Shown piece after piece: positions 1 to 61,197 of a DNA stretch of 64,000 nucleotides. A model generated the notes under the pieces. The model saw nothing but the letters and a program-made list of their open reading frames with translations, was not told the DNA's origin and did no database searches. Source of the stretch: Catenulisporales bacterium. Its GTDB lineage: Bacteria; Actinomycetota; Actinomycetes; Streptomycetales; Catenulisporaceae. Within the stretch, counting starts at the first letter, position 1; the number at the start of each line of letters is the position of its first letter. Where the stretch lies: the NCBI GenBank assembly GCA_019510485.1, contig JAEKKI010000175.1:1-64000 (forward strand). Reading direction: 5' to 3'. A program made the position numbers and the translations under genes.

Positions 1-3000
1 CGTCAATTCGTCTTCCGTACGAAGCATCGTGGCGGCCAGACCGCTGACCCGGTCCCAGATCCGGACCGTCTCGCCTTCGGTGGTGGCCAGCCAAGCGCCG
101 TCTGGGCTGATCGCTACCGAATTGGGCGCTCTGGGATGCCGGAGGGTGGCCGTCACAGTACCGTCGGCCACATTCCAGATCTGCGCCATGGGATCGCTCA
201 TGCTGGGGGTGATGGTCGCCAGCCACGTGCCGTCCCGACTGATCGCCACCGAGTCCACGGGGGAGTCGTGGCGCAGGGTGTTGATGACGGTGCCGCTGGC
301 TAGATCCCATATCGATACGGTGTCCCCGACGTACTCCGAAATACTGGTGAACTCCGATGCAGCGGTGACGGTCACCAGCCGGGCACCGTCCGGGCTGATG
401 ATTGCGGAACGCACCCGGCCGGGGTGTTCCAGGGCGGCGGTGACGGTACCGGAGTCCGGGGCCCAGATCCGCACCGTCCGCTCAACGCTGTCGGTGGTGG
501 CCAGCCAACTCCCGTCCGGGCTGATCGCCACCGACCCCAGCCGGCGGTCGTGGTGGAGACTGGCGGTGACGGTGCCGTCGGCCAGATCCCAGATGCGCGC
601 TGTCCCGCCGCCATCGTCGATGGTGGCCAGCCAGGTGCCGTCGGGACTGATCTCCACTGACGACATCAGCCCTACCTGTTCCAGGACCGCTGTGACGGTT
701 CCGCTGGCCCGGTCCCAGATCCGCACCCTCCCTACGTCGCCGTCCCCAGTGGTGGCCAGCCACGTGCCGTCCGGACCGATCGCCACCGACCACACCGATC
801 TGTTGTGTGCGGCGGTGGCGGCGATCGCGGTGTCGGCAGTCAGATCCCAGATCCGCATCTCCCCTCGATAGGCGCCGGTAGTGGCCAGCCAGGTACCGTC
901 CGGGCTGATGGCCATCGACAACACCGGTTCGCTGCAGTGGAGGATGCTAAGGGGAACGCGGCGAGCCACATCCCAGATGTGCACTGTCCCGTCGTAGATG
1001 CCGGAGACTGTGGTGGTCGTGGCCACCCACTTGCCGTCCGGGCTGATCGCCACCGAAAACGCCGTGCCGTGGTGGTAGAGGTTGGTGATCACCGTGCCGC
1101 TGATCGGGTCCCAGATGCGCACTGTCCCGTCGCCGCGGACCGTGGTCGCCAGTCTGCTGCCGTCGGGACTGATCGCCACCGACCGCACTGCATCGTCGTG
1201 GTGGAGGGTGGTGGTCAAGGTCCCGCCGGCCCGGTCCCAAATCCGCACTGTGCCATCGCTGTCGGAGCGGCCGGTAGTGGCCAGCCAGGTGCCGTCCGGG
1301 CCGATCGCCACGGAACCCGCCGAGTAGTCGTGGCCGATCGTGGCGATGAGGGCGCCGCCGGCCACATCCCAGATCTGTATCGAGCTGTCCGCGCCGACAT
1401 CGTCGTCAGGGTCGACCGTGGTGGCCAGCCAGGTGCCGTCCGGGCCGATCGCCACCGACCGCACTGGATCGTCGTGTTCGAAGGCGGCGGTCATGGTGCC
1501 GGCGGCCCGGTCCCAGATGCGCACCGTCTTGTCCCAGGCGCCGGTGGTGGCCAGCCAGGTGCCGTCCGGACTGATCGCGACTGAATTCGCTCCGCGGGAC
1601 GCGATCAGGACCCGGCGCATCGCCGGGTCGGGCAGGTCCGGCGGATCCCAAAGGTTGCGCAGCACCGGCAGGCAAGCCGGTGCTTGCCCGAGCCTGGCGA
1701 CCTGCTGCCGCCAGGCGGGAAGCGGCGCCAGACGGCTGTGCAGGATGGCGGTCAGGGCGTGGGCTGGGTCGGTCGGCGTCAGCAGGTGGGCGATACGCAT
1801 CAGGTCCCTGGCTCTGCCCGCGGCCGCCGACGTGCCGATTAGTTCCAGGTCCTTGATCGCGGCTGTCGGACCGCGCTGAAACAGCCGCGCTCCGATCCAC
1901 CGCAGGTCAGCGGCCAGCATCTCGGCCTGGTCGGCGTATCCGGCATCCAAGAGGTGCTCGATCCCGTGGTCCAGCACAAAACCCTCGTCGCTTTCCCACC
2001 AGGCCGGCATCGTCGAGCCTTCGGGATCCGCCGCAGCGGTGGGCAACCCTTCGGCCAAGCGGTCCACCAAGGCGGCGTTGGCCTCCTGAATGCGCTCGGC
2101 GCCCAGCTCGGCCCGTAGGTAGTCTCGGATGACGTCGTGCATGCCCAGCCGTCCGCCGTCAGCGGGATCCCACCTGATCAGCGACAGTTCGGCCAGCGCC
2201 AGACACAGATCCCCGGCGTGGCGGGCGGTCAGGCCTGCGGTGCCCGCCCAAAGGGCGGCGACCAGCGCGGCGGGCACGGCCTCGTCCGCGGCGAACACCC
2301 CCAGCTCGGCAAGGCGGACCCGGTCGTGGGAAGGGTCGGAGAGCAGGGTGACCGAGGCCTCGATCGTGGCCCGGACTGAAGCGGCCCGCTGCTTGCGGGC
2401 TCCGAAGTCCACCGCGAGGGCTGGGTCATCCACCGCCGCCGGACCGGCCTGGCGCAGCGCCTCCCATAGGCCGGAGGCCGCAACGTCGGGCGTGTCACCG
2501 CGGCGTATGGCTTTGGCGATGTACTGGTTGGCCAACCGCAGCAGCAGCGCCCACCCGCCTGTGGCTTCCAGCAACTCCGCCACGACCGGCGCAGGCAACG
2601 TCGGCAAGTCCCGGAGCAGCACCCTCCGAGCCTGCTGCGGAGACATCCGATCGACTTCGATCCGTTCGGCGTCGGCCGGCAGCACACCGGGGATACGCGT
2701 GGTGACCAGCCGCACACATCGTTCTCGGGCACCGATCAGGAACGGCGCCAACTGTTCGGCTTCCCATACGTCGTCCAATACGAGCAGCGTGCGTGGCCGC
2801 GCGGCCAGCAACCGGCCCAGATGTGCTCCGGCCATCTCCGGATCGTCGAACGCTGTCTCGTCGCCGGTGATGAACTTCGTCGCCTGAGCAACCTTCGCCG
2901 CGATCGCCGCCGACCCCCGCACGTCGCGGCCGATCGTCACCTCATAAACCCGCCCGCCGAACACTCGCCGCAGCCGGCGATCGGCCCGAACCAGATCGGC

Positions 3001-3477
3001 CACGGTGGTCTTCCCAAAGCCCCCGGCACCGTGCACCCCGGCGGTGATGCCCACAGGGCGCCCGCTGCGACCCCGAGCCAGCACGGCCGCGACCACCAAC
3101 CGGGCCTGCTCCCGGTCCACCACCCACTCCGGCACCACCGGCGCGTCCGGTGGCGGCGGATCCCCGGCCACCGCGGCGACGCGCTGCTGCAGGAACACCT
3201 GCGCCAGCGCCAGCACCGCGGCGAACACTGTGAACACCGCGAGGAACGGAAACGGTTGCTGCCGGATGGCATCCAGCGGCCACGGCCACCGGGACCGGTT
3301 CGTGGCCGGGTTGACCGCCAGCCCCAAGGCGGTGGCGTCCAGGACCACCGCCACGGCCAGGATGTACAGCGACATCCCGCGGAACCTCACCGCCACCGCG
3401 CCCCCAAGGCCTTCGCGACGTCCGACAGACCAGAACCAGAACCCTTCATTCAACCGCCCCGGCCCGGCGTCGCGCAC
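1..3477 (-). CDS. STAND NTPase (NB-ARC type) with C-terminal WD40 repeats, 3' end beyond window
   Basis: The minus-strand frame is open from about 3477 to the left edge. After a hydrophobic N-terminal stretch (MSLYILAVAVV and a second segment FPFLAVFTVFAAVLALA) comes a P-loop, GAGGFGKTT, then Walker B TLLVLDDVW and an NB-ARC/winged-helix region. From about 1600 downward at least twelve repeats of ~43 residues each carry S-P-D-G-T-W-L-A-T-T and R-I-W-D, which is typical WD40. STAND proteins of this build are signal-responsive NTPase switches; the ligand is unknown. GTG at 3477 is my start because the frame is open and plausible from there; GTG at 3390 is the alternative. The gene follows a YihY-family gene on the same strand, 27 bp away. 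The predicted membrane segments before the NTPase domain suggest anchoring. Confidence 0.88.
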   Translation of the reverse strand, partial: MRDAGPGRLNEGFWFWSVGRREGLGGAVAVRFRGMSLYILAVAVVLDATALGLAVNPATNRSRWPWPLDAIRQQPFPFLAVFTVFAAVLALAQVFLQQRVAAVAGDPPPPDAPVVPEWVVDREQARLVVAAVLARGRSGRPVGITAGVHGAGGFGKTTVADLVRADRRLRRVFGGRVYEVTIGRDVRGSAAIAAKVAQATKFITGDETAFDDPEMAGAHLGRLLAARPRTLLVLDDVWEAEQLAPFLIGARERCVRLVTTRIPGVLPADAERIEVDRMSPQQARRVLLRDLPTLPAPVVAELLEATGGWALLLRLANQYIAKAIRRGDTPDVAASGLWEALRQAGPAAVDDPALAVDFGARKQRAASVRATIEASVTLLSDPSHDRVRLAELGVFAADEAVPAALVAALWAGTAGLTARHAGDLCLALAELSLIRWDPADGGRLGMHDVIRDYLRAELGAERIQEANAALVDRLAEGLPTAAADPEGSTMPAWWESDEGFVLDHGIEHLLDAGYADQAEMLAADLRWIGARLFQRGPTAAIKDLELIGTSAAAGRARDLMRIAHLLTPTDPAHALTAILHSRLAPLPAWRQQVARLGQAPACLPVLRNLWDPPDLPDPAMRRVLIASRGANSVAISPDGTWLATTGAWDKTVRIWDRAAGTMTAAFEHDDPVRSVAIGPDGTWLATTVDPDDDVGADSSIQIWDVAGGALIATIGHDYSAGSVAIGPDGTWLATTGRSDSDGTVRIWDRAGGTLTTTLHHDDAVRSVAISPDGSRLATTVRGDGTVRIWDPISGTVITNLYHHGTAFSVAISPDGKWVATTTTVSGIYDGTVHIWDVARRVPLSILHCSEPVLSMAISPDGTWLATTGAYRGEMRIWDLTADTAIAATAAHNRSVWSVAIGPDGTWLATTGDGDVGRVRIWDRASGTVTAVLEQVGLMSSVEISPDGTWLATIDDGGGTARIWDLADGTVTASLHHDRRLGSVAISPDGSWLATTDSVERTVRIWAPDSGTVTAALEHPGRVRSAIISPDGARLVTVTAASEFTSISEYVGDTVSIWDLASGTVINTLRHDSPVDSVAISRDGTWLATITPSMSDPMAQIWNVADGTVTATLRHPRAPNSVAISPDGAWLATTEGETVRIWDRVSGLAATMLRTEDELT

Positions 3478-15474: not shown

Positions 15475-16542
15475 ATGACCGGAACGGTGGCGTTCGTCCT
15501 CGGCGGCGGCGGACCGCTGGGCGCCTACGAGGTCGGCATGCTCAAAGCCCTGATGGAGCGCGGGATCCGGCCGGACCTGGTGCTCGGTTCCTCGGTCGGG
15601 GCCCTCAACGGAGCCGCCGTCGCCGCCGATCCGCGCCCGGACGCCGTCGCCCGCCTGGAGCAGCTCTGGATCTCGCTGCGCGAGCGCGGCGTGTTCGCGG
15701 ACACGCTGTTCGCACAGATGGGCACCGCGCTGCGCAGCAAGACCCACCTGTTCTCCAACGCCGCCCTGCGGGGGCTGCTGGACCGCGAGTTCGGCGACCG
15801 GCTGATCGAGGACCTCCCGGTGCCGTTCGAATGCGTCGCCGCGTCGATCGAGCGCGCCACGGAGCACTGGTTCGGCAGCGGCCCGCTGGTGGAGGCGGTG
15901 CTGGCGTCCTCGGCGGTGCCGGGCCTGCTGCCGCCGGTCCCGATCGGCGGGGAGCACTTCCTGGACGGCGGCCTGGTGGACAGCGTCCCGGTCGGCAGGG
16001 CCCTGGCCTCGGGCGCCGGCACCGTCTACGTCCTGCACGTCGGCCGCATAGACCAGCCGCTGCAACCGCCGCGCACGCCGCGCGAGGTGGCCGTGGTCGC
16101 CTTCGAGATCGCGCGCCGGCACCGGTTCGTGCACGCCCGACCGGCGGCGCGAACGCCTCGGCGCTTCGGCCGCGCTACGGCCGCCGAGGGCTGGGACTCG
16201 TCCGGGAACGCATCGAACGGGCGCATCAGGCTTCGGCGGCGTATCTCGCGGAGAACGTGCCATGAGCAACGCCTTGGACAAGCCGGGCCCGGGCCCGCGC
16301 GGTCGGACGCCGCGCGCGATCGCCCGCCGTATCGTGGGCGTCTGCATACTGCTGCTCGTCGCTGGTTTGGTATACGTCACAGCGATCGGCGCCGCGCTCT
16401 ACACGATCCTCACCGCGCCGATGCGGTTACGGCTAGGGCGAGCGCGCCGGGTGCTGGCCATCGCGGTCGCCTACGCGACGATCGAGATCGTCGGGCTCGC
16501 GGTGGCGTCGTTGCGGTGGGTCCGCTTCTTCGTCGACCGTAA
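15475..16542 (+). CDS. Patatin-like phospholipase, C-terminus frameshifted
   Basis: The catalytic part is intact: oxyanion loop G-G-G-G-P-L-G-A-Y near residue 12, nucleophile elbow GSSVGAL near 42 and the D-G-G of the Ser-Asp dyad near 165, as in bacterial patatins that cleave acyl ester bonds. After E-I-A-R-R-H-R-F-V-H (about 16135) the frame leads into 130 unrelated Arg-rich residues that overlap the next gene. In the +1 frame the family-like end reads P-T-G-G-A-N-A-S-A-L-R-P-R-Y-G to L-A-E-N-V-P, stopping at 16265 in an ATGA overlap with the acyltransferase start. A segment of about 12-15 residues plus the frame was lost; a sequencing error is also possible. Confidence 0.75.
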   Translation: MTGTVAFVLGGGGPLGAYEVGMLKALMERGIRPDLVLGSSVGALNGAAVAADPRPDAVARLEQLWISLRERGVFADTLFAQMGTALRSKTHLFSNAALRGLLDREFGDRLIEDLPVPFECVAASIERATEHWFGSGPLVEAVLASSAVPGLLPPVPIGGEHFLDGGLVDSVPVGRALASGAGTVYVLHVGRIDQPLQPPRTPREVAVVAFEIARRHRFVHARPAARTPRRFGRATAAEGWDSSGNASNGRIRLRRRISRRTCHEQRLGQAGPGPARSDAARDRPPYRGRLHTAARRWFGIRHSDRRRALHDPHRADAVTARASAPGAGHRGRLRDDRDRRARGGVVAVGPLLRRP

Positions 16543-17323
16543 CGTCGACCGGGACCGGGAAGACCTGCTGCGGTCGCTGCGCCGCTCTCTTCGCGTGCTG
16601 CGAAAGGCCGCGCACCGGTTCGCAGGGCTCGAAGTCATCATGGTCGCCGGACCCGATGACCGGGCGGAAGCGGAACGGGAATTCCCCGCCGGCCCGCTGA
16701 TCGTGTGCAGCCGCCACGGCGGCCCCGGCGGGGCGTTCCTGCTCGCGCACCTCCTGCTGTCCGACTACGGCCGCGTCCCGCGCGTGGTCCTGAAGCACTC
16801 CCTCGCCTGGGATCCGCTGCTGGACGCGCTGCTCAGCAGGCTGCCGCACGCGTTCGTCGATCCCGATCCCGGCGACGGCGGCTCCACCGCCGCCCGGATC
16901 GGGTCGCTGGCGCACGGGATGGCCGCGGACGACGCCTTGCTGATCTTCCCGGAGGGCGGGAACTTCACGCCGCGCCGCCGCCTGCGCGCGATCACCCGCC
17001 TGCGCCGCCGCGGCCTGTTCACGCACGCCGCGCGCGCCGAGCGGCTGCGGCATGTTCTGCCGCCGCGGCCCGACGGCCTGTTCGCCGCGCTGGAGGCCGC
17101 GCCGGAGTCCGATGTGGTGTTCGTGGCGCACACCGGGCTGGATCATCTGCTGTCCGCCGGCGATGTGTGGCGGGCACTCCCGTTGGCCCGGCCGGTGGTG
17201 TTCACCTGGTGGTCGGTGCCGGCGGCGGAGGTGCCGCGGCAGGCGGAAACGCGGCTCGGCTGGCTGGAGGACAACTGGGCCCGGATCGACCGCTGGGTGG
17301 ACCGGAACCGGATTGCGTTGTGA
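16262..17323 (+). CDS. 1-acylglycerol-3-phosphate acyltransferase-like (PlsC-type) membrane protein
   Basis: 353 residues. An N-terminal membrane helix (IVGVCILLLVAGLVYVTAIG) and a second hydrophobic region precede an acyltransferase domain with S-R-H-G-G-P-G-G-A-F as the catalytic H-x4-D-like block and L-I-F-P-E-G-G-N-F-T-P as the FPEG substrate block. The Asp of the usual H-x4-D is not obvious, so the activity is less certain than the fold. The start overlaps the ancestral patatin stop (ATGA), so the pair would have formed a lipid-remodelling unit. Confidence 0.75.
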   Translation: MSNALDKPGPGPRGRTPRAIARRIVGVCILLLVAGLVYVTAIGAALYTILTAPMRLRLGRARRVLAIAVAYATIEIVGLAVASLRWVRFFVDRNVDRDREDLLRSLRRSLRVLRKAAHRFAGLEVIMVAGPDDRAEAEREFPAGPLIVCSRHGGPGGAFLLAHLLLSDYGRVPRVVLKHSLAWDPLLDALLSRLPHAFVDPDPGDGGSTAARIGSLAHGMAADDALLIFPEGGNFTPRRRLRAITRLRRRGLFTHAARAERLRHVLPPRPDGLFAALEAAPESDVVFVAHTGLDHLLSAGDVWRALPLARPVVFTWWSVPAAEVPRQAETRLGWLEDNWARIDRWVDRNRIAL

Positions 17324-17412
17324 GACATCGGACGACGATGCATGAATCGCGCCACGCCGGACAAGAAGGCGGACCGACTTTGCAGAACAGGACGAGACTG
17401 GGAGACCGCCCG

Positions 17413-18102
17413 ATGACCATCACCAGCGCGCCGGCTGCTGACCCGATCCCCGCCCCGACCACCGACCCGGTCCGCGCGATCCGTGCCCGCCCGATCACCG
17501 ACCACCCGGTGAACGGCCACCGGGTCAACGGCCACCCGGCGGGCGGCCGCGCGCTCGGCGCCCGCCCGCCGGCGCCGGCCCTCAAGCCCGGGCTCGTCCG
17601 GCTCAAGGTCAGCGTCGACGACGGCGCCCGGCGCGAGCTGAGCGAGCGGGAGATCGAGGTCCTGACGCTGATCGCGGCCGGCGGCACCAAAGGCGAGATC
17701 TCCCGGGAACTGGGCATCGCGCCGCGCACCGTGGCCAGCCACATGTCGCGGATCTACCGCGCCCTCGGGGCGCGCAACGCGGCGCACGCGGTAGCTCTGG
17801 CGCACGGCTCCGGGACGATCCAGCTCCCGGCCCGGCGGCCACCGGCGCCGGGCCCGGCGATGTCGCGCCGCGAACGCGAGGTGCTGGCCGGGCTGGCCCA
17901 CGGGCTGACCTCGGCGCAGGTGGCCTGGTGCCTGTCGCTGTCCAGCGAGACCGTCAAGACCCACCTGCGGCGCATCTACCGCAAGCTGGAGGTCAGCTGC
18001 CGGGCGAACGCCGTGGACGCGGCCATCCGCCGGCGGCTGCTCGCCGTGGTGCTGGAGCCGCGCGGCGGGCGCCAAGTCGGACCGACGCCCTTCGCCCGGT
18101 AG
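17413..18102 (+). CDS. LuxR-type regulator with two tandem HTH domains
   Basis: 229 residues. After a Pro/Arg/Asn-rich N-terminus, residues about 75-135 form one GerE/LuxR HTH (L-S-E-R-E-I-E-V-L-T-L-I-A-A-G-G-T-K) and 152-210 a second (M-S-R-R-E-R-E-V-L-A-G-L-A-H-G-L-T). Both have the T-V-x-x-H recognition-helix pattern (R-T-V-A-S-H-M; E-T-V-K-T-H-L). No receiver, GAF, PAS or AAA domain is present. Two DNA-binding heads on one chain and no sensor are unusual for this family. ATG 17413 with GGGAGAC upstream; a hairpin terminator follows. Confidence 0.82.
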   Translation: MTITSAPAADPIPAPTTDPVRAIRARPITDHPVNGHRVNGHPAGGRALGARPPAPALKPGLVRLKVSVDDGARRELSEREIEVLTLIAAGGTKGEISRELGIAPRTVASHMSRIYRALGARNAAHAVALAHGSGTIQLPARRPPAPGPAMSRREREVLAGLAHGLTSAQVAWCLSLSSETVKTHLRRIYRKLEVSCRANAVDAAIRRRLLAVVLEPRGGRQVGPTPFAR

Positions 18103-18161
18103 CCCGGTAAAGAGCGGTAACGGCGCCATTCACCCAGCGCGCCACAATCCCCCTGCCCGAA

Positions 18162-18198
18162 GACCGCATGCCCTGCCGCCAGACGGGCATGCGCGGTC
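18162..18198 (+). terminator. Hairpin terminator after the LuxR gene
   Basis: Arms 18162-18173 and 18185-18198 (GACCGCATGCCC and its near-complement with a 2-nt bulge). There is no T-run, which is common in high-GC actinomycetes. Confidence 0.5.
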
Positions 18199-18244
18199 GG
18201 CGGCCACCCGGGCCGCGCTTGGGGACCAGGTGAGGAGAACGGCG

Positions 18245-19360
18245 GTGCGCACGGCGCTTCAGCAGCTCACTGATCACGGACAGAGCCCTTGGATCCACTA
18301 TCTGACCCGCGACTGGATACAGGACGGCCAACGGGGCCTGCCCCGCCTGATCCGCTGCGGGATCACCGGCGCCGTGGCCAACCCCGCCTCGCTCGCCACC
18401 GCCCTGGCCCACACCTCCGCCTACGACGAGCAGATCCGTACCCTGATCCCGCTGCTCGACGACGCCGAGGACTTCCGCCGCCAGCTGGTGCGCGTCGATG
18501 CCCAGCAGGCGTGCGACCTGCTGCTGGAGGCGGCGGCCGGGGACGGGGCGCTGGACGGCTGGGTCGGCCTGGACCTGGACCCGCGCTCGGCCGACGACCC
18601 GGGCGCCACCGTCGCCCAGGCGCAGCGGCTGGCCACCGCGGTCGGCCGCCCGAACCTGCTGATCGGCATCTCCGCCGCCGAGGCCGGGCTGAGCGCGATC
18701 GAAGAGGCCACGGCGCGGGGGCTGTCCGTGATGGCGACGTCGGTGTACTCCCCCGGCCGCTTCCGCGAGACGGCGATCGCCTACCGGCGCGGGCTGGCCC
18801 GGCTGCTGGAGGCCGGCGGCGATCCGGGCTCGGTGAGCTCGGTGGCCGCCGTCCCGCTGTCGGCGCTGGATGAGAAGGCTGATCTACGCCTGCGCTCGAT
18901 GGGCGGCCACCCCGAGCTGATCGGGACTCTGGGCATTGCGACCGCCAAGCTGATCCGCGCCGAATGCCTGTCCGTCTTCTCCGGCGACACCTGGATCCGG
19001 CTGGCCGCGCACGGCGCGACGCCGCAGCACTGCCTGTGGTCGTCCCTGACCGTGACCGACGGCAGGCAACGCGACGTGCGCTACGTGGAGGAGCTGATCG
19101 GCCCGGACACCGTCGCGCTGCTGAGCCCCTACACCGCCGAGGCGTTCCTGGCCGGCGGCCGCGTCGAGGCCACACTGGACGACCAGATCCTGTCCGCGCG
19201 CCGCACCGTCGCGGCACACGTCAAAGCCGGCATCAGCCCCAAGCTGATCGCCGCCGCGCTGGAGCGCGAGAGCGTGCGGCGCGGCGCGGAGGCGTTCGGC
19301 GACGTGCGGAGCGTGATCGACGACAAGCGGGCGCTGCTGGCGCCGGCGGGGCGGTGGTAG
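18245..19360 (+). CDS. Transaldolase-like protein lacking the Schiff-base lysine
   Basis: 371 residues with the transaldolase layout: G-I-T-G-A-V-A-N-P-A-S-L near the N-terminus, N-L-L-I-G-I-S-A-A-E-A-G in the middle and L-S-V-M-A-T-S-V-Y-S after it. In active transaldolases the middle motif is N-L-x-x-K-I-P-x-T and the lysine forms the Schiff base with the sugar. Here that position is Gly (~141), and the early Asp of the active site also appears replaced (S-P-W-I-H-Y-L). Normal catalysis looks impossible. The frame is otherwise intact and full length. GTG 18245 has GAGGAGA upstream; GTG 18230 is possible but overlaps that site. Confidence 0.8.
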   Translation: MRTALQQLTDHGQSPWIHYLTRDWIQDGQRGLPRLIRCGITGAVANPASLATALAHTSAYDEQIRTLIPLLDDAEDFRRQLVRVDAQQACDLLLEAAAGDGALDGWVGLDLDPRSADDPGATVAQAQRLATAVGRPNLLIGISAAEAGLSAIEEATARGLSVMATSVYSPGRFRETAIAYRRGLARLLEAGGDPGSVSSVAAVPLSALDEKADLRLRSMGGHPELIGTLGIATAKLIRAECLSVFSGDTWIRLAAHGATPQHCLWSSLTVTDGRQRDVRYVEELIGPDTVALLSPYTAEAFLAGGRVEATLDDQILSARRTVAAHVKAGISPKLIAAALERESVRRGAEAFGDVRSVIDDKRALLAPAGRW

Positions 19361-21307: not shown

Positions 21308-22288
21308 TCACCGAGCGACGCCGAGCCGGCTGCGCAGGTTCGCGAGGATCTGCGACAGCAGCCTGGACACCTGCATCTGCGACACCCCGAGCTCGCTGCC
21401 GATCTCGGACTGCGTCATGTTCCGGAAGAACCGCATCAGCAATATGCGCTTCTCGCGGTCGGTGAGCCGTTTCAGCGCCTCCTTGAGCGCCTCCCGGTCC
21501 ACCACCATGTCGATGGCCGGATCCTCGGCGCCGATCAGGTCGCCCAGCACGATGCCGTCACCGTCGGCGGCGGCGACCGGCACGTCCAGCGACGCCGTGG
21601 AGTAGGCGCGGGTCGCCTCGAAGGCGTTCACGACGTCCTCGACGCTGGCGTCCAGATGCGCCGCCAGCTCGTCGACCGTCGGTGAGCGGCCCAGCTCCTG
21701 CGCCAGCTCGCCCGAGATCACCCGCAGCTGTCCGGACAGCTCCTGCATGCGGCGCGGCACGTGGACGTCCCAGGTGGTGTCCCGGAAGTGCCGCTTCATC
21801 TCGCCGGTGATCATCGGCGTGGCGTAGGTGAGGAAGGTGGTGTCGAAGGCGGGGTCGTAGTTGTCGACCGCTTTGACCAGGCCGACATAAGCGGCCTGCA
21901 CCAGGTCCCGGGCGGCGTCGCCGTGCAGGCAGTAGCGGCCGGCCAGGAAGCGGGCGTAGGACATGTACTCCGAGATCACTTCTTCCCGCAGCCGGGCCCG
22001 CCGCGGCTCCGCGTGGTCCATCCGGCACAGCTGGTGCAACTTCGCGAGCGTCCGCGCCCGCTGTTCCTCGGTCGCGTCGGCCTCGGGTTTCTGGTCGGGT
22101 TTCTGGTCGCGTTTCTGGTCGGGCTCGGGCTCGGTCATGGACAACGCTGGGGAACGGAATTCGGTAGCAGTAGGCAAACCCATTTCTGAAGTCCCTGCGT
22201 GAAAGTCCGCCGCCACACTCTGCGGCGGGGACACCCGCTCGCTTGTGACCCTTTCCGGAGGGGTGAAACGGTGTAAGGGATAAGACAT
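21308..22288 (-). CDS. RNA polymerase sigma factor, SigB/SigF/WhiG-type general-stress family
   Basis: 326 residues. Region 2 (D-L-V-Q-A-A-Y-V-G-L-V-K-A-V, T-Y-A-T-P-M-I-T-G-E-M-K-R-H-F-R-D), region 3 (L-G-R-S-P-T-V-D-E-L-A-A-H-L) and region 4 (M-T-Q-S-E-I-G-S-E-L-G-V-S-Q-M-Q-V-S-R) are all present, typical of SigB/SigF group-3 sigma factors. The family recognises GTTT-N14-16-GGGTA-like promoters, and such sites are common in this window. The N-terminus carries a short D-Q-K repeat. ATG 22288 is the chosen start; 22183 (AGGGA upstream) and the ATGATG overlapping the STAS stop are alternatives. It is downstream of, and probably coupled with, the STAS gene. Confidence 0.9.
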   Translation of the reverse strand: MSYPLHRFTPPERVTSERVSPPQSVAADFHAGTSEMGLPTATEFRSPALSMTEPEPDQKRDQKPDQKPEADATEEQRARTLAKLHQLCRMDHAEPRRARLREEVISEYMSYARFLAGRYCLHGDAARDLVQAAYVGLVKAVDNYDPAFDTTFLTYATPMITGEMKRHFRDTTWDVHVPRRMQELSGQLRVISGELAQELGRSPTVDELAAHLDASVEDVVNAFEATRAYSTASLDVPVAAADGDGIVLGDLIGAEDPAIDMVVDREALKEALKRLTDREKRILLMRFFRNMTQSEIGSELGVSQMQVSRLLSQILANLRSRLGVAR

Positions 22289-22317
22289 GGCCAGGACTTC
22301 CCGGGCATCGCCGGGCA

Positions 22318-22698
22318 TCATCGGGCCCTGGCTGTCGCCGCGTTCCCGACCGCCGGCGTGACTTGCAGGACGGGGAGCATCCCGGTGCGTGCCAGCAGCC
22401 GGAGCAGGGAATCCCCAGGCGCGGCCACGACGAACGACGTGCGCAGAGCGTGCGCCAGCTGGTCGGCCCGGAGCAGAGTACGCAGTCCCGCGCTGTCCAT
22501 GAACTCCACGCCGGAGGCGTCCAGCACCACCGGGCGCCGGTCCTTCAGCGGTGTTTCCAGCGCCGACCACAGGGCGTCGCAGCTCGCGATGTCCACGTCC
22601 CCGGCCGCCCGGATCACGGTGACCGCCGACGGCTCGAGAACCGATCCGGCGTACGGCTCGGCCACCGTCACGGCGAGGTGGCGCGGCGGAGTCTTCAA
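22318..22698 (-). CDS. STAS-domain anti-sigma factor antagonist, in operon with the sigma factor
   Basis: 126 residues: A-A-G-D-V-D-I-A-S, then V-V-L-D-A-S-G-V-E-F-M-D-S-A-G-L-R-T with the serine of D-S-A-G-L as likely phosphorylation site. It should bind an RsbW-type kinase and release the sigma factor encoded 30 bp downstream. TTG 22698 is preferred because GAAGGGGG lies seven bases upstream; GTG 22728 gives ten more residues. Transcription should start at the stress-type promoter 22764-22788, implying autoregulation. Confidence 0.85.
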   Translation of the reverse strand: MKTPPRHLAVTVAEPYAGSVLEPSAVTVIRAAGDVDIASCDALWSALETPLKDRRPVVLDASGVEFMDSAGLRTLLRADQLAHALRTSFVVAAPGDSLLRLLARTGMLPVLQVTPAVGNAATARAR

Positions 22699-22763
22699 GG
22701 GTCTGCCCCCTTCGTGGTGCCCCGCCACGCGCCGCTCGTCCGGCCCGCGGCGGGTCCTGAACG

Positions 22764-22788
22764 ATGCCCCGCCGTACGGGAGTGAAAC
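22764..22788 (-). promoter_or_regulatory. SigB/SigF-type promoter of the STAS-sigma operon
   Basis: Minus strand: GTTT (22788-22785), exactly 15 nt, GGGCAT (22769-22764). It is 66 bp upstream of the STAS start, so the sigma factor probably drives its own operon. Confidence 0.65.
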
Positions 22789-22830
22789 GGTGGCGGCGGG
22801 CCGTCGGCCGCCAAAACGCCGCCGGGCCCG

Positions 22831-23133
22831 TCATCCGCCGTCGGCCACGATCCGGCCGATCGCCGCGGCCAGTCCTTCGAGCATCAGCCTCAGTTCATCG
22901 GCGTCGGCGGCCGGCCGGGGTTCGAAGGGGTGCAGCAGGGCGTCGGCGTCGAAGCCGCGGCGGGTCAGGACGCCGGCCGCCATGGTGCGGGCCACATCCA
23001 GACCGGTCGCCGGGTCGTCGACGAAGACGCCGGAGGCGTGCCGCAGGGCGCCGTCCAGGTAGACGGCGTCCTCGGGCGTGAGGCGGCGCGGGCCGGGCGT
23101 GGTCGCGGGGTCGTCGCGGAACCAGGCTGTCAT
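22831..23133 (-). CDS. Small FVxDP-domain protein
   Basis: 100 residues, soluble: D-A-V-Y-L-D-G-A-L-R-H-A-S-G-V-F-V-D-D-P-A-T-G-L-D-V-A-R and a C-terminal helix with E-L-R-L-M-L-E-G-L. Same domain as 5464-5853 and 13234-13659. Its ATG overlaps the stop of the YihY gene (ATGA), making it the fourth member of the Hsp20-NRAMP-YihY operon. Function unknown. Confidence 0.72.
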   Translation of the reverse strand: MTAWFRDDPATTPGPRRLTPEDAVYLDGALRHASGVFVDDPATGLDVARTMAAGVLTRRGFDADALLHPFEPRPAADADELRLMLEGLAAAIGRIVADGG

Positions 23134-43942: not shown

Positions 43943-44622
43943 GCGGCCCCTGGCTGCCCGACCAGCTGCGCGATCCGCTGCGGACCCGGTTGAAGCAGAC
44001 CGCGACGTTTCTGACGGACGCGGACGCGCTGGTGCACGACTGCGCGCTCTGGGGTGCGCGGCTGGCGTCGAGCCTGGGCGGCGGCGGGCGGCTGCTGGCG
44101 GCCGGCAACGGCGGGAGCGCGGCCCAGGCCCAGCACCTGACCGCCGAGCTGGTGGGCCGCTTCCACGCCGAGCGCCGTCCGCTGTCGGCGTTCCCGCTGC
44201 ACGCCGACACCTCCTCGACCACCGCGATCGGCAACGACTACGGCTTCGCCGAGGTGTATGCGCGACAGGTGCAGGCACACGGCCGGCCGGGCGACGTCCT
44301 GATCCTGATGTCGACCTCCGGCCGCAGCCGGAACCTGCTGAACGCCGGCGAGCGCGCCGCGCGGATCGGGATGCGGGTGTGGGCGATGACCGGCCCCCGG
44401 CCGAACCCGTTGGCGGATCTGGCCGACGAGGTGCTGGCCGTGGCGGCGGACAGTACGGCGACGGTGCAGGAGGTGCATTTGGTCGCGGTGCATTTGATGT
44501 GCGAGGCGGTTGATCTGGCGTTGGCCGCCATGGACGGCGCCGCTGATGGCGGCAAGAAGTCTTCGGCCACCTCTTCGTCTTCGGACCGACGGGGTGCTTC
44601 CGGCTTGCGGGAGGCAGTGTGA
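43939..44622 (+). CDS. gmhA: Sedoheptulose-7-phosphate isomerase
   Basis: 227 residues with a SIS fold: A-A-G-N-G-G-S-A-A-Q-A-Q-H-L-T-A-E-L-V-G-R-F, D-T-S-S-T-T-A-I-G-N-D-Y-G-F and S-T-S-G-R-S-R-N. These are the GmhA signatures; the enzyme converts sedoheptulose 7-phosphate to D-glycero-D-manno-heptose 7-phosphate. Low-complexity Ser/Arg C-terminus. GTG overlaps the GT4 stop (GTGA). HldE follows with the same overlap. Confidence 0.92.
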   Translation: MSGPWLPDQLRDPLRTRLKQTATFLTDADALVHDCALWGARLASSLGGGGRLLAAGNGGSAAQAQHLTAELVGRFHAERRPLSAFPLHADTSSTTAIGNDYGFAEVYARQVQAHGRPGDVLILMSTSGRSRNLLNAGERAARIGMRVWAMTGPRPNPLADLADEVLAVAADSTATVQEVHLVAVHLMCEAVDLALAAMDGAADGGKKSSATSSSSDRRGASGLREAV

Positions 44623-46349
44623 GGACGGCGACAGGACCCCTGGTGGTGGTCGGCGACGCGTTGCTGGACCGCGATCTGGACGGGACGGCGAGCCGGTTGG
44701 TGCCGGACAGCGCGGCGCCGGTGCTGCCGGACCCGGCCGAGCGTGTGCGTCCGGGCGGGGCGGCGCTGACGGCGCTGCTCGCGGCGCGGTCTGGGGTGGA
44801 CACGATCCTTGTCGCGCCGCTGGGTCGGGGTCCTGCTGCCGACGAACTGCGCGAACTGCTCACACCGCTGGTCCGCGTGGTCGAAATGCCGTGGACCGGC
44901 CGGGTCCCCGAGAAGATTCGCATCCGGGCCGACGGCCGCGTGCTGGTGCGCCTGGATCATGATGGCGACCGGTACAGCGGGCCGCTGGGGCCTGAGGCGG
45001 TCGCCGCCCTGGCTTCCGCGGGCGCGATTCTGGTCAGTGACTATGGTCGCGGGGTGACGGCGGTCGCCGAACTCAGGAGGCTGCTTACCGCGCGTGCCAA
45101 ACGGGTGCCGCTGGTGTGGGATCCGCATCCGGCTGGGATGCCGCCGGTGGCGGGGACGCGGTTGGTGACGCCTAATCTCGCGGAGGCGATCGCGGTCGCG
45201 GGGGGTGAGGAGGCGGAGGAATCGCAGGGATCGTCGAACGGGTCTGCGGGTGTGGGTAACGGTGGCGGTGGTTCGGTCTCGGCCGGATATCGCGACGGCG
45301 CCAGGCAATCGGCTCTGATCGACGGCTCCGGCGCGGGCAGTTCGGCCGCCGCCGTACGCCGCGCCAAGGGGGTCCGGTCAACCGCGACCGGCGTCGCTGA
45401 CGCAGACGGTTCGGCCTCGCTGAACGGCGCTCACACAAGCGGATCAGCTCCGGCCGGCGATACCGAACCGCCGGGCCGACCCGAAAAGCTCGGCGGATCC
45501 GGCACCGGCAGCCGCGCCGGTCACCAGGCAGGCCGCCTCAACCCCCGCCCGCCGCGCCGCCAGACCTACCAAGTAGCCGTCGAGGCCGCACGCCGTCTGG
45601 TGCAACGCTGGTCGGTGAGCCACGTCTGCGTCACGCTCGGCGGAAGCGGCGCGTTGCTCGTCGGCGATCGGGAGCGGATTCTCGTGCCGGCGCCGGCAGT
45701 CACGGTCATGGACCCCTGCGGCGCCGGGGACCGGTTCGCAGCAGCAGCCGCGGCGGCTTTGCGGCGGGGAGCGCTGGTGTCAGAGGCCGTGGACTCTGCG
45801 GTGCATGCGGCTGCGCAGTTCCTGGCCGAAGGCGGAGTCGGTGGGCTGAGCGACACAGGGCGCACCGGTCGGCCGGCGCTACCGGCCGGCTCGGCCGATG
45901 CGTGGGAGCTGGCGCAAGCCGTCCACGCCACCGGCGGGACCGTCGTGGCGACCGGCGGCTGTTTCGACCTTCTGCACGCCGGCCACGTCCGCTGCCTGAG
46001 CGCGGCGCGCGCCGCCGGCGACTGCCTGATCGTGTGCCTGAACTCCGACGACTCGGTCCGCGCTCTCAAGGGCCCCGGCCGGCCGGTCGTCCCGGCGGCG
46101 GACCGGCGGGCGATGCTGGAGGCGCTGGAGTGCGTCGACGCCGTGATCGTCTTCGACGAGCCGACCCCGGCCGCCGTCCTGTCCCGACTGCGCCCGGACG
46201 TGTGGGTCAAGGGCGGCGACTACGACGCGGCCGACCTGCCGGAAGCCGAGTTGCTCCGCTCCTGGGGCGGCCAGGCGCTGACCGTCCCGTACCTGGACGG
46301 CCGCTCCACCACCACCCTGCTGCGGGCCGCGACCGGGACCCGCCGGTGA
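44619..46349 (+). CDS. hldE: Bifunctional heptose kinase / heptose-1-phosphate nucleotidyltransferase
   Basis: 576 residues, order as in HldE/RfaE. The N-terminal PfkB kinase part has G-D-A-L-L-D-R-D, V-S-D-Y-G-R-G-V and the catalytic D-P-C-G-A-G-D-R-F. The C-terminal nucleotidyltransferase has G-G-C-F-D-L-L-H-A-G-H-V-R and V-K-G-G-D-Y. An insert of ~110 residues (about 190-305), rich in Gly/Ser/Ala/Arg, splits the kinase domain after N-L-A-E-A-I-A-V-A-G-G. Together with GmhA and GmhB it should make the nucleotide-activated heptose. GTG overlaps the GmhA stop. Confidence 0.9.
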   Translation: MRTATGPLVVVGDALLDRDLDGTASRLVPDSAAPVLPDPAERVRPGGAALTALLAARSGVDTILVAPLGRGPAADELRELLTPLVRVVEMPWTGRVPEKIRIRADGRVLVRLDHDGDRYSGPLGPEAVAALASAGAILVSDYGRGVTAVAELRRLLTARAKRVPLVWDPHPAGMPPVAGTRLVTPNLAEAIAVAGGEEAEESQGSSNGSAGVGNGGGGSVSAGYRDGARQSALIDGSGAGSSAAAVRRAKGVRSTATGVADADGSASLNGAHTSGSAPAGDTEPPGRPEKLGGSGTGSRAGHQAGRLNPRPPRRQTYQVAVEAARRLVQRWSVSHVCVTLGGSGALLVGDRERILVPAPAVTVMDPCGAGDRFAAAAAAALRRGALVSEAVDSAVHAAAQFLAEGGVGGLSDTGRTGRPALPAGSADAWELAQAVHATGGTVVATGGCFDLLHAGHVRCLSAARAAGDCLIVCLNSDDSVRALKGPGRPVVPAADRRAMLEALECVDAVIVFDEPTPAAVLSRLRPDVWVKGGDYDAADLPEAELLRSWGGQALTVPYLDGRSTTTLLRAATGTRR

Positions 46350-47308
46350 GGCCGAGGATCCTGCTGCTGCGTGCCTTGGGCCTCGGCGATTTCCTGACCG
46401 GCGTCCCGGCCTATCGAGCCGTCCGCCGCGCCTTCCCCGACCACGAACTCATCCTCGCCGCCCCGGGCGAGTTGGCCGGACTCGCCGCGCTCGACGGCAG
46501 CCTGGATCGCCTACTGCCCACACCGGGCCTGGGACCCATCGCCTGGCGGCACCAGCCGCCTGAGGTCGCCGTCAACCTGCACGGCACCGGAGCCGACAGC
46601 CACCTCATCCTGGAACGCCTCAACCCCGGTCGCCTGATCACCTACCACAGCGACCCGCTGCCGGACTGGTCCGAGGACCACGAACGCCGCCGTTGGTGCC
46701 GATTACTGGAGCACGCGGGCATCCCCGCCGATCCCGACGACTTCGAACTCACGGCCCCGCCGCGGCCGCAGCTCCCTTACACGATCGTCCACCCCGGCGC
46801 TGCTTTTCCCGCCCGCCGCTGGCCCGCCGAACGCTTCGCCGCCGTGGCCCGTTGGCTCCACCATCACGGCCACCGCCTACGGATCACCGGCACCGGAGCT
46901 GAGACCGCACTCGCCCGACAAGTCGCCGAACGCGCCGGACTACCGCGAGAAGCGTCCATCGCCGGCCGCACCGCACTGACCGACCTGGCCGGCATCATCG
47001 CCACCGCCCGCCTGGTGATCAGCGGCGACACCGGCATCGCGCACCTCGCGACGGCCTACCGCCGCCCTTCGGTCGTCTTGTTCGGTCCGATCCCGCCGGC
47101 GCAATGGGGGCCTCCCTACCGTCCGTACCACGCAGCCCTCTGGCCCGCCGACCTCGACTACCGCGGCAACCCGCACGGCATGTCCGTAGATCCCGCGCTG
47201 GAACGCATCACGATCAGTGACGTCCTGGGGGCGATCGAGCTGGTCTTGTCCAACCAGCCCAGCGGCAGCGCTCAAAACACTCCGCCGGGCGCGAAACAGG
47301 CCGTTTAG
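46346..47308 (+). CDS. GT9-family heptosyltransferase-like glycosyltransferase
   Basis: 320 residues: L-L-L-R-A-L-G-L-G-D-F-L-T-G-V-P, V-N-L-H-G-T-G, I-V-H-P-G-A-A-F-P-A-R-R-W-P and S-G-D-T-G-I-A-H-L-A-T-A-Y. These are the motifs of ADP-heptose:LPS heptosyltransferases. As the organism is Gram-positive the acceptor is not LPS but presumably a cell-surface glycan. GTG overlaps the HldE stop. It closes the operon. Confidence 0.88.
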   Translation: MRPRILLLRALGLGDFLTGVPAYRAVRRAFPDHELILAAPGELAGLAALDGSLDRLLPTPGLGPIAWRHQPPEVAVNLHGTGADSHLILERLNPGRLITYHSDPLPDWSEDHERRRWCRLLEHAGIPADPDDFELTAPPRPQLPYTIVHPGAAFPARRWPAERFAAVARWLHHHGHRLRITGTGAETALARQVAERAGLPREASIAGRTALTDLAGIIATARLVISGDTGIAHLATAYRRPSVVLFGPIPPAQWGPPYRPYHAALWPADLDYRGNPHGMSVDPALERITISDVLGAIELVLSNQPSGSAQNTPPGAKQAV

Positions 47309-52822: not shown

Positions 52823-54730
52823 TCAACGCCCCGAAGCCAGCTGACGAGCCAAGGTCACGATGTGCGCGGCCGAGATCCCGGCCGCTTCGAGCTGTTCGCC
52901 GGCAGCCCGCGAATCAGGCATCGAACGCACCGCGAGGTGTCCGAACTCCGGCGCCACACCGCACTCGGCGAGCGCGCTCAGCACGGCTTCGCCCAGGCCG
53001 CCCTCGGGATGGTGGTCCTCGACGACGACGATCCGGCCGGTGTCGGCAGCAGCCCGCGCGACCGCTTCGGCGTCCAACGGCTTGACCGAGTAGAGGTCGA
53101 GAATCCGCGCGCCGATGCCCTCGGCAGCCAGGATCTCGCGGGCCTTCAGGCATTCGTGGACCGTGACGCCGGCGGCGAGCAGCGCCACCTGGTCGCCGTC
53201 GTTCGCGTGCAGCGTTCGGGAACCGCCGATCGGGAACCGCTCGCCGGGGTCGTAGAGCACCGGGTAGGCCCCGCGGGTCGCCCGCAGATAGCTGATACCC
53301 GGCAGCCCGGCCATGGTGACCGTCAGGGCGGCGGCGCTGGTGGCGTCGCTGGGATACAGCACGGTCGAGCCGTGGACCGCGCGCATCATCGCCAGGTCCT
53401 CCAAGCCCATCTGGGACGGGCCGTCCTCGCCGATCTCCACGCCGCAGTGGGTCCCGCACAACGCGAGATCCGCGCCGGTGATCGCGGCCATCCGCACGAA
53501 GTCGTACGCGCGGGAGAAGAAGGCGGCGAACGTCGCGGCGAACGGCTTGAATCCGGAGACCGACAGTCCGACCGCGGTCGCGACCATCTGCTGCTCGGCG
53601 ATGAACGACTCGAAGAACCGCTCCGGGCAGGCCTTGGCGAAGGCGTCGGTGTAGGTGGAGTTGCCGACCTCGGCATCCACGACCACCACCTCGGGCCGGA
53701 CCTGGAGCGCCAGCAGAGCCTCACCGAACGCCTTGCGGACCGCGACCTCGTCGCCGCGGGCGAACTCGGGGACCCGCACGTCCGCGCGGCCGATCGGGAG
53801 CGTGGACTTCCCGTCCTGGCGCGGGCCGGCCGGTTCGAGCCCTGAGACGCGGACGTCCGCGGGTGCGCCGAGCTCGGTGACGGCGCGCTCGGCGAGGTCG
53901 TCCGGGAGCGCCTTGCCGTGCCATCCCGGGAGGTCCTCGATCTCGGCGACGCCCCGGCCCTTGCGGGTGCGGGCCAGGACGACCGTCGGGCGTCCGCCGC
54001 GGCGCGCGGTGTCCAGGGCGGTGTCGAGTTCGGCGAGATCGTGGCCGTCGACCGGGATCGCGGTGCAGCCGAAGGCCTCGACGCGCTTGACGTAGGCGTG
54101 CAGGTCCCACTGCAGCGCGGTGGGGCCGCGCTGGCCGAGGCGGTTCACGTCGACGATGACCGTCAGCTCGCCGAGGTCGTAGCGGCCGGCGGTGTCCAGG
54201 GCCTCCCAGACCGAGCCCTCGGCCATCTCGCTGTCCCCGCACAGGATCCAGACCTGCGGGCGGGCGTGGTTCCGGTGCCGGAGGCGGCCGGCGAGGGCGA
54301 TGCCGACGCCGATGCCGATCCCCTGGCCGAGCGCGCCGGTCGCGGCGTCGACCCAGGGCAGGACGGGGGTCGGGTGGCCCTGGAGCCGGCTGCCGGGGCG
54401 GCGGTAGGTGTGGACGAGTTCGTCGTCGGAGATCACGCCGGCTGCTTTGAACATCGCGTAGAGGAGGGGCGAGGCGTGGCCCTTGGAAAAGATGAGGTGG
54501 TCGTTGCCGGGGGCGTCCGGGTCGCGCCAGTCGTAGCGGAGGTGGCGGGTCATCAGGACGGCCATGATGTCGGCGGCCGACATACCAGAGGTCGGATGGC
54601 CCGAACCGGCGGTCGTGGAGCAGCGGATGGCGTCGGTGCGCAGGCGTTGGGCCAGGTCGTGGACGTCGGCCAGGCCGCTGCGGGGGTCGACGAGGAGGGC
54701 TCTGGCCGGGGCGGTGTCGGTGCCGTGCAT
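52823..54730 (-). CDS. Transketolase
   Basis: 635 residues in one chain. N-terminal ThDP domain: S-G-H-P-T-S-G-M-S-A-A-D, F-S-K-G-H-A-S-P, G-D-S-E-M-A-E-G-S-V-W-E-A as the Mg/ThDP motif. Middle Pyr domain with G-E-D-G-P-S-Q-M-G. C-terminal domain D-L-Y-S-V-K-P. Produces and consumes sedoheptulose 7-phosphate, the precursor of the heptose locus. CAGGAG precedes ATG 54730. A possible stress-type promoter drives it, unlike a housekeeping copy. Confidence 0.92.
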   Translation of the reverse strand: MHGTDTAPARALLVDPRSGLADVHDLAQRLRTDAIRCSTTAGSGHPTSGMSAADIMAVLMTRHLRYDWRDPDAPGNDHLIFSKGHASPLLYAMFKAAGVISDDELVHTYRRPGSRLQGHPTPVLPWVDAATGALGQGIGIGVGIALAGRLRHRNHARPQVWILCGDSEMAEGSVWEALDTAGRYDLGELTVIVDVNRLGQRGPTALQWDLHAYVKRVEAFGCTAIPVDGHDLAELDTALDTARRGGRPTVVLARTRKGRGVAEIEDLPGWHGKALPDDLAERAVTELGAPADVRVSGLEPAGPRQDGKSTLPIGRADVRVPEFARGDEVAVRKAFGEALLALQVRPEVVVVDAEVGNSTYTDAFAKACPERFFESFIAEQQMVATAVGLSVSGFKPFAATFAAFFSRAYDFVRMAAITGADLALCGTHCGVEIGEDGPSQMGLEDLAMMRAVHGSTVLYPSDATSAAALTVTMAGLPGISYLRATRGAYPVLYDPGERFPIGGSRTLHANDGDQVALLAAGVTVHECLKAREILAAEGIGARILDLYSVKPLDAEAVARAAADTGRIVVVEDHHPEGGLGEAVLSALAECGVAPEFGHLAVRSMPDSRAAGEQLEAAGISAAHIVTLARQLASGR

Positions 54731-54773
54731 ACAGGACTCCTGTTCGCGTTCGGATGCCGGACGGTCCGCTCGG

Positions 54774-54798
54774 CTACCCCGAACTTCCGGGTCGAACC
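54774..54798 (-). promoter_or_regulatory. Possible SigB/SigF-type promoter of the transketolase gene
   Basis: Minus strand: GGTT (54798-54795), 15-nt spacer, GGGTAG (54779-54774), 44 bp before the start. The -35 differs by one base; it overlaps the divergent promoter region. Confidence 0.45.
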
Positions 54799-54799
54799 G

Positions 54800-54824
54800 G
54801 TTTGACCTCATCGCGGGCGGGATA
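54800..54824 (+). promoter_or_regulatory. SigB/SigF-type promoter of the PRC-barrel gene
   Basis: GTTT (54800-54803), 15-nt spacer, GGGATA (54819-54824), 33 bp before ATG 54857. Confidence 0.65.
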
Positions 54825-54856
54825 CCGGGAGGCCCCAGCCGTGAGGAGTGACCGAT

Positions 54857-55117
54857 ATGACGGAAAGCATGGCTATGGCCATCGGTTCGGCGGTCGCGGG
54901 CGATGAGGGTTTCGCCGGCGAGGTCGAGCGGATCGATCTGGATCCCAGTGGAAGCTTCGCGGTGCGGGTGGCTGTCCGGCCACGGCATGAGGGCGGGGCG
55001 GCGCGGCTGGTGCCGGCGCGGATGTTGGAGCCCTCTGATTCCGGCGGCCTGCGAATGTCCTGCACCCTGGAGGAGTTCGAGACGCTGCCGCCTGCGGACA
55101 CGAACGGACCGCGCTGA
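54857..55117 (+). CDS. Small PRC-barrel-like protein
   Basis: 86 residues: G-E-V-E-R-I-D-L-D-P-S-G-S-F, R-L-V-P-A-R-M-L and M-S-C-T-L-E-E-F-E-T-L. Matches the small beta-barrel PRC-like proteins of actinomycetes whose last strand carries C-T-x-x-E-F. ATG 54857 is eight bases after GAGGAG. Overlaps the PAP2 start by one base. Confidence 0.72.
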   Translation: MTESMAMAIGSAVAGDEGFAGEVERIDLDPSGSFAVRVAVRPRHEGGAARLVPARMLEPSDSGGLRMSCTLEEFETLPPADTNGPR

Positions 55118-60306: not shown

Positions 60307-61197
60307 ATGAGACTGGGTTTGAGTTGTACGAGCTTCACCTGGCCCGGCGGCAGCGCTGCGATCAGCGAGGGCTATGCCCGCGCCGCACGCGCCGCCGAGG
60401 AGCGGGGCCTGTACAGCTTCTGGGTGATGGACCACTTCTGGCAGATCAACGGGCTCGGTCCACCCGAGGAGCCGATGCTGGAGTCGTACAGCGCGCTGGC
60501 CTATGCCGCGGCCCTGACGAACCGGGTGACGCTCGGGGCGCTGGTCACCGGTGCGCCCTACCGGCCGCCGGGGCTGCTGATCAAAGAGGTCACCACCCTG
60601 GACGTGCTCTCCGGCGGCCGGGCTGTATTGGGTATCGGAGCGGGCTGGAACCAGGACGAGGCTCGCGGCCTCGGGCTGCCGTTCGCGCCGCTGAGTGAGC
60701 GCTACGAGATGCTCGAGGAGACGTTGCAGATCGCGCACCAGATGTGGACCGGCGACCAGGTCCCCTTCCAGGGCAAGCACTTCCGCCTGCGGCGTCCCCT
60801 GAACTCCCCCGAGCCGATCAGCCGGCCGCATCCGCCGATCCTGGTCGGCGGCAACGGCGAGAAGAAGACGCTGCGGCTGGTCGCCCGGTACGCCGACGCC
60901 TGCGACCTGTTCGAGGGCGTCGACGTCCGGCACAAGCTCAACGTGCTGCGACAGCACTGCCAGGACGCCGGCCGCGACTACTACGCCATCGAGAAGACGC
61001 TGCACTTTCGCATCAAGGAGGAGGACGACGTGGACCGGACCGTCGAGCGCTGCACAGCGTGGGCCGCGGACGGGATCCAGCACGCGATCGCCGGCGTCCC
61101 GGACGCCGCGGCGCGGCGCTGGCAAGACCATCTCGGCGAGGTCGCCGAACGGATCGAGAAGGTGGTGAGCGCCGATGACGGCGGCGATGATCACTGA
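60307..61197 (+). CDS. F420-dependent luciferase-like oxidoreductase
   Basis: 296 residues, LLM TIM barrel: L-S-C-T-S-F-T-W-P-G, W-V-M-D-H-F-W-Q-I, T-L-D-V-L-S-G-G-R-A-V-L-G-I-G-A-G-W and I-L-V-G-G-N-G-E-K-K-T-L-R-L-V-A-R-Y-A-D. ATG 60307 with GAGAGCG upstream. Its end overlaps the 61175 gene by 23 bp, suggesting coupled expression. Confidence 0.9.
   Translation: MRLGLSCTSFTWPGGSAAISEGYARAARAAEERGLYSFWVMDHFWQINGLGPPEEPMLESYSALAYAAALTNRVTLGALVTGAPYRPPGLLIKEVTTLDVLSGGRAVLGIGAGWNQDEARGLGLPFAPLSERYEMLEETLQIAHQMWTGDQVPFQGKHFRLRRPLNSPEPISRPHPPILVGGNGEKKTLRLVARYADACDLFEGVDVRHKLNVLRQHCQDAGRDYYAIEKTLHFRIKEEDDVDRTVERCTAWAADGIQHAIAGVPDAAARRWQDHLGEVAERIEKVVSADDGGDDH

Follow-up and report, generated by a model that had tools for sequence, protein, structure and literature searches.

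A conserved transaldolase-fold protein without the catalytic residues, probably non-catalytic, next to a LuxR-type regulator gene in Catenulispora

The stretch of DNA analyzed here (the window) comprises 64,000 nucleotides from a Catenulisporales bacterium. It contains a transaldolase-like open frame of 376 amino acids (18230–19360, forward strand, from ORF calling), for which we prefer the GTG start at 18245. This codon lies 7 bases 3′ of a GAGGAG and aligns with the ATG or GTG starts of three orthologs, and all residue numbers below are counted from it. Directly upstream is a gene for a LuxR-type regulator with two GerE helix-turn-helix domains, in which Pfam recognized no sensor domain. An acyltransferase gene precedes the regulator, and a gene for a SigB-type sigma factor converges on the transaldolase-like gene from the other side (Table 1). 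STAS, Hsp20, hemerythrin, catalase, and CBS genes lie nearby; the label "stress locus" that we use is taken from the names of these neighbors. Toward the ends of the window are a large NB-ARC and WD40 protein of STAND-type architecture (3–3477, reverse strand) and a protein of the bacterial archaeo-eukaryotic release factor (baeRF) group (61175–62326, forward strand).

Table 1. Coordinates of the transaldolase-like gene, its altered codons, and the neighboring features in the window
Feature	Position	Strand	Basis
Acyltransferase gene ahead of the regulator gene; order shared with G003 and G005	16262..17323	+	Pfam PF01553, synteny
Regulator gene leader, conserved in orthologous loci including G009	17340..17412	+	Sequence comparison
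LuxR-type regulator, two GerE (HTH) domains, directly upstream of the transaldolase-like gene	17413..18102	+	Pfam, tblastn synteny
Intergenic gap from the regulator gene to the transaldolase-like gene; inverted repeat 18166-18192; GAGGAG 18232-18237	18103..18244	+	Sequence, genome pattern search
Transaldolase-fold protein without catalytic residues, 371 aa	18245..19360	+	ORF, Pfam TAL_FSA, AlphaFold2, PDB matches with Z about 50
His18 codon, place of the catalytic Asp	18296..18298	+	Alignments
Gly141 codon, place of the Schiff-base lysine	18665..18667	+	Alignments
Met163 codon, place of the strand-5 Asn (TalB N154)	18731..18733	+	Alignments
Ala207 codon, place of the phosphate-binding Arg (TalB R181)	18863..18865	+	Alignments
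ORF of a SigB-type sigma factor; converges on the transaldolase-like gene in the window and in G003	21308..22834	-	Pfam sigma-70 r2/r3/r4, residues 288-501

The Pfam family TAL_FSA (PF00923) covers residues 39–358 of the 376-residue frame (1.3e-31), and its score of 110.5 bits lies well above the cut-off of 27. Solved Neisseria and Corynebacterium transaldolases match the protein at 1e-39 to 1e-36 in sequence comparison. An AlphaFold2 model, built from a 27-row alignment, has a pLDDT of 93.8 and a pTM of 0.91, and it superposes on the Neisseria transaldolase 7bbw with Z 50.8 and rmsd 1.4 over 350 residues. Its best structural matches are, as a group, the Neisseria and Corynebacterium enzymes, with Z 50–51 and rmsd 1.4–1.7 over 350–356 residues; the next group reaches Z 32. 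As modeled, the chain would form the complete (β/α)8 fold of subfamily III transaldolases, and the superposition on an active enzyme bears out the original prediction that the fold is full length. The scores against two NCBIfam families fall short of the curated cut-offs in all four orthologs: 246–268 bits versus 367 for NF002881 and 129–149 bits versus 233.75 for TIGR00876. The intact controls, two paralogs from the window's genome and one from G004, score 408–543 and 249–428 bits, respectively. By fold and superfamily, the window protein counts among the transaldolases, yet it lacks the catalytic features that define the enzyme and scores below the curated cut-offs.

The original prediction started from a Gly, residue 141, where the Schiff-base lysine would be expected, and from the apparent loss of an early active-site Asp. 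Alignments agree on both points, with NLLIGIS in place of NxxIKIP and His18 at the Asp position, and add further losses: the strand-5 Asn and the strand-6 motif Phe and Arg (N154, F178, and R181 in E. coli TalB numbering) are replaced by Met163, Pro204, and Ala207, and the basic residue (a conserved Lys) after strand 7 is Thr271. In all four orthologs, residue 141 is Gly, residue 18 is His, and residue 204 is Pro, with Ala or Gly as residue 207 and Met or Leu as residue 163; the Lys after strand 7 is Thr, Ser, Val, or Pro among them. In place of the Asp-Glu-Lys triad, the window protein carries His18, Asp110 (Glu in one ortholog), and Gly141. The Arg that is missing at 207 is the residue that binds the phosphoryl group in transaldolase (PMC3962226). 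The full ten-residue catalytic and binding set is present in 73 of 85 aligned transaldolase rows. These rows are not a random sample; they are the top-scoring matches and include a few loci twice. The 12 rows that lack the full set are the four orthologs, in all of which the catalytic set is lost, seven rows from five other loci that are divergent or damaged (L042, L043, L044, L068, and L074), and one partly aligned row from L045.

Altogether, 19 or more of 20 active rows agree at 25 positions that are different in all four orthologs, and 48 other family-conserved positions are retained. Many of the changed positions lie at or just after barrel strands (18, 44, 108, 141, 163, 203, 204, 207, 268, 271, and 291–294). 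On balance, two Lys, one Arg, and one Asp have disappeared, and the residues gained are Gly, Ala, Pro, Leu, and Val and a single His. Fourteen of the 25 formerly conserved positions are conserved in their new state (counted by eye), about the same fraction as the 191 of 371 across the whole protein, so conservation does not mark the pocket as the part that carries the function. A lysine elsewhere in the active site would have undone the original prediction. The protein has only five lysines (K211, K235, K327, K333, and K361), and in the model each of them lies in a helix rather than a barrel strand. Along the sequence, the one closest to the end of a strand is K211, which belongs to the helix that follows strand 6. 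None of them appears to take over for the missing Schiff-base lysine. The NOS redox switch between Lys8 and Cys38, described for the N. gonorrhoeae transaldolase (PMC8964421), was likewise set aside; when the alignment with the solved transaldolases is inspected by eye, both positions differ in the window protein, and its own C38 is not the aligned residue.

Orthologs 69–70% identical to the window protein occur in three further Catenulispora genomes (G003, G004, and G009; the window's own genome is G000), and G141 and H18 are common to them. Because G004, a single complete contig of 10.47 Mb, carries both changes, they are no assembly error, and neither sequencing error nor chance accounts for the residue losses. 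An ortholog profile scored above 700 bits in 4 of 14 family genomes, equal to 4 of 10 in the genus, with the next best score at 260. The same four genomes were the positives among 391 of the order, and the window's own was the single positive among 394 of the class; both sets were drawn samples with at most five candidates scored per genome. No ortholog was found outside Catenulispora among the genomes searched in the family, order, and class surveys, and each of the 66 plasmid records that matched did so at below 60% identity. An intact transaldolase is encoded elsewhere in all ten genus genomes, with two in the window's own, so the transaldolase-like gene is not needed for that reaction, and its absence from six of the ten indicates that it is dispensable.

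The ortholog tree joins G004 with G009, in line with the tree of the active transaldolase, in which G000, G003, and G005 are unresolved near the genus base and G009 is joined with G007. Unless it was transferred, the gene was probably already present in the ancestor of the genus, which on parsimony implies a minimum of three losses. The closest intact relative is a second transaldolase next to an aconitase gene in the window's genome (G000:C103), which is 40–41% identical to the window protein; it retains all ten catalytic and binding residues and passes the cut-offs, whereas the window protein does neither. In full trees, the clade is a tentative sister of this aconitase-adjacent paralog (SH-aLRT 84–87, not significant). 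Removing the paralog from the tree places the clade with two long Streptomyces rows instead, and this placement may possibly reflect long-branch attraction; L042 and L043 are represented in the tree by slices of one frame each.

Other transaldolase-like frames with altered active sites came to light in these searches. The aconitase-adjacent transaldolase that is intact in the window's genome is changed at several catalytic positions in G003:C490 (L044:270–2270) and lacks the middle part, including the lysine, in G005:C843 (L043:19–678). G004 carries a third divergent frame, in which Thr takes the place of the lysine and a repetitive acidic stretch is inserted (L042:1120–3180). At the order level, L074:1480–2865 (G112) and L068:1447–2616 (G196) are paralogs with altered active sites that adjoin class-II DAHP synthase genes; the strand-5 Asn is His in both, and the Lys is Arg in L074, which also adjoins an anthranilate-synthase-like gene. 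These two settings are possibly aromatic biosynthetic clusters.

The orthologs are under purifying selection. By codon maximum likelihood (GY94), ω (dN/dS) is 0.02–0.16 in all six pairs, rough values since dS is saturated in several of them, and ω = 1 is rejected for each pair (2ΔlnL of 122–236). An intact paralog in three of these genomes gives ω of 0.08–0.13, and the pseudo-copy is the more diverged of the two (66–72% versus 85–89% identity). Reading frames and ribosome-binding sites are intact in all four orthologs. The low dN/dS indicates that the residue loss is old and that the gene is selected rather than decaying; loss of the catalytic residues in every member is thus coupled with purifying selection after the loss, as in a pseudoenzyme. 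The trees give the clade a stem of 1.8–2.3 changes per column and slow evolution afterward, the pattern to be expected if the function changed and constraint then set in.

The transaldolase-like gene directly follows the regulator gene at three of the four loci (G000, G003, and G004). The order acyltransferase, regulator, transaldolase-like gene, and convergent sigma factor gene is common to the window and G003, where the sigma factor is 87% identical; the window has three additional genes ahead of the sigma factor, and in G004 a CsbD-like gene lies just upstream. Regulator orthologs (at least 62% identity) occur in 6 of the 10 genus genomes. In G005 and G007, the regulator has no transaldolase-like gene next to it, and in G009 it lies on another contig (C23), with only its leader and first codons retained at the transaldolase-like locus, so the two genes are not an obligate pair. 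The GC-rich inverted repeat in the gap between them has no second occurrence in the genome when up to 2 mismatches are allowed. Its hairpin folds no better than shuffled sequences, and no terminator- or promoter-like site was found in the gap. We also searched four genomes for the leader motif GCATGA-N11-15-GGACATGA and saw no regulon: there were three sites at these loci and two elsewhere, which lie in two genomes and have one different sequence in common, with none in G000, whose own leader copy differs.

The original prediction raised the possibility of a sugar-phosphate-binding regulatory or scaffold role, citing a transketolase and a heptose locus in the window that both use sedoheptulose 7-phosphate (S7P). 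Both loci exist, but at about 33 kb (transketolase, 52823–54988, reverse strand) and about 25 kb (HldE-like and heptosyltransferase genes, 44619–47308, forward strand) from the transaldolase-like gene. Linkage to the transketolase is not conserved in relatives: the matching gene lies about 1.76 Mb from the ortholog in G004 and on another contig in G009 and G003. For the heptose genes, no match was found in the roughly 8–10 kb that flank the G004 and G009 orthologs on each side. Because the phosphate-binding Arg is gone, sugar-phosphate binding by the protein seems unlikely from its sequence. The non-catalytic half of the proposal fares better, with the catalytic residues lost, the fold kept, and the gene under purifying selection. 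The transketolase has a 73% identical second copy in G000:C133, besides the copy that adjoins the intact transaldolase.

Taken together, these results lead us to favor, as the likely explanation, a conserved pseudo-transaldolase: a catalytically dead subfamily III paralog serving as a non-catalytic binding protein of the stress locus. In a common ancestor of these Catenulispora species, a subfamily III paralog would have been stripped of its Asp, Lys, and strand-5 Asn as well as of its phosphate-binding residues, and it would have stayed under purifying selection thereafter. The window protein would then not catalyze the transaldolase reaction and would instead bind a ligand or partner, most likely through the remodeled, less charged mouth of the barrel, the protein surface, or both. 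It may be made together with, or alongside, the regulator. Only four orthologs are known. A more specific version, in which the dead barrel is the ligand-sensing partner of the double-HTH regulator, is attractive because that regulator has no recognized sensor domain; we assign it a low probability because the two genes are not always together. If true, a fold of central metabolism would have been turned into a stress sensor, with the less charged pocket reading a new metabolite.

A neofunctionalized enzyme, using His18, the acidic residue 110, and Thr165 for other chemistry instead of a Schiff-base lysine, would also fit the long stem and the slow evolution after it. His18 does not vary among the four orthologs, position 110 is occupied by Asp or Glu throughout, and Thr165 is present in all of them. 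We nevertheless consider it unlikely: no known enzyme with such a residue set was found, the charged and polar residues at the changed positions mostly gave way to apolar ones, and the neighborhood offers no clue to a substrate. Decay of a duplicate on its way to loss is improbable. The patchy presence of the gene and the decayed look of the related aconitase-adjacent transaldolase in G003 and G005 are in its favor, but ω is far below 1 in every pair, frames and ribosome-binding sites are intact throughout, and the replacements H18, G141, and P204 are common to all. The shared fold and the intact paralogs in the same cell would suit a regulatory subunit of the active transaldolase in mixed oligomers. 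However, linkage to the active gene is not conserved, six of ten genomes with the active enzyme do without the protein, and the C. glutamicum enzyme of subfamily III, the nearest well-studied class, is reported as monomeric (PMC7092467), which makes this reading very doubtful.

The pseudo-transaldolase offers a clean case of a full fold in which the catalytic set is replaced, the losses are common to species, selection is strong, and the cell has intact paralogs as well. Pseudoenzymes are a well-known class, and our literature search found no paper on a conserved dead transaldolase. The case warns against annotating such genes as transaldolase and supplies a tractable protein for asking to what reuse an abandoned sugar-phosphate barrel is put. 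The nearest known systems are the subfamily III transaldolases of C. glutamicum (3r5e) and N. gonorrhoeae (3clm and 7bbw), which the window protein resembles in its full-length fold at about 30% identity; unlike them, it has neither the catalytic Lys and Asp nor the phosphate-binding Arg and scores under the NCBIfam cut-offs. A likewise naturally inactive transaldolase gene is the truncated one of Bacillus methanolicus MGA3. The MGA3 gene is reported to be an N-terminal truncation in one strain and to belong to subfamily IV (PMC7092467), whereas the window gene is full length, point-substituted, and conserved across species.
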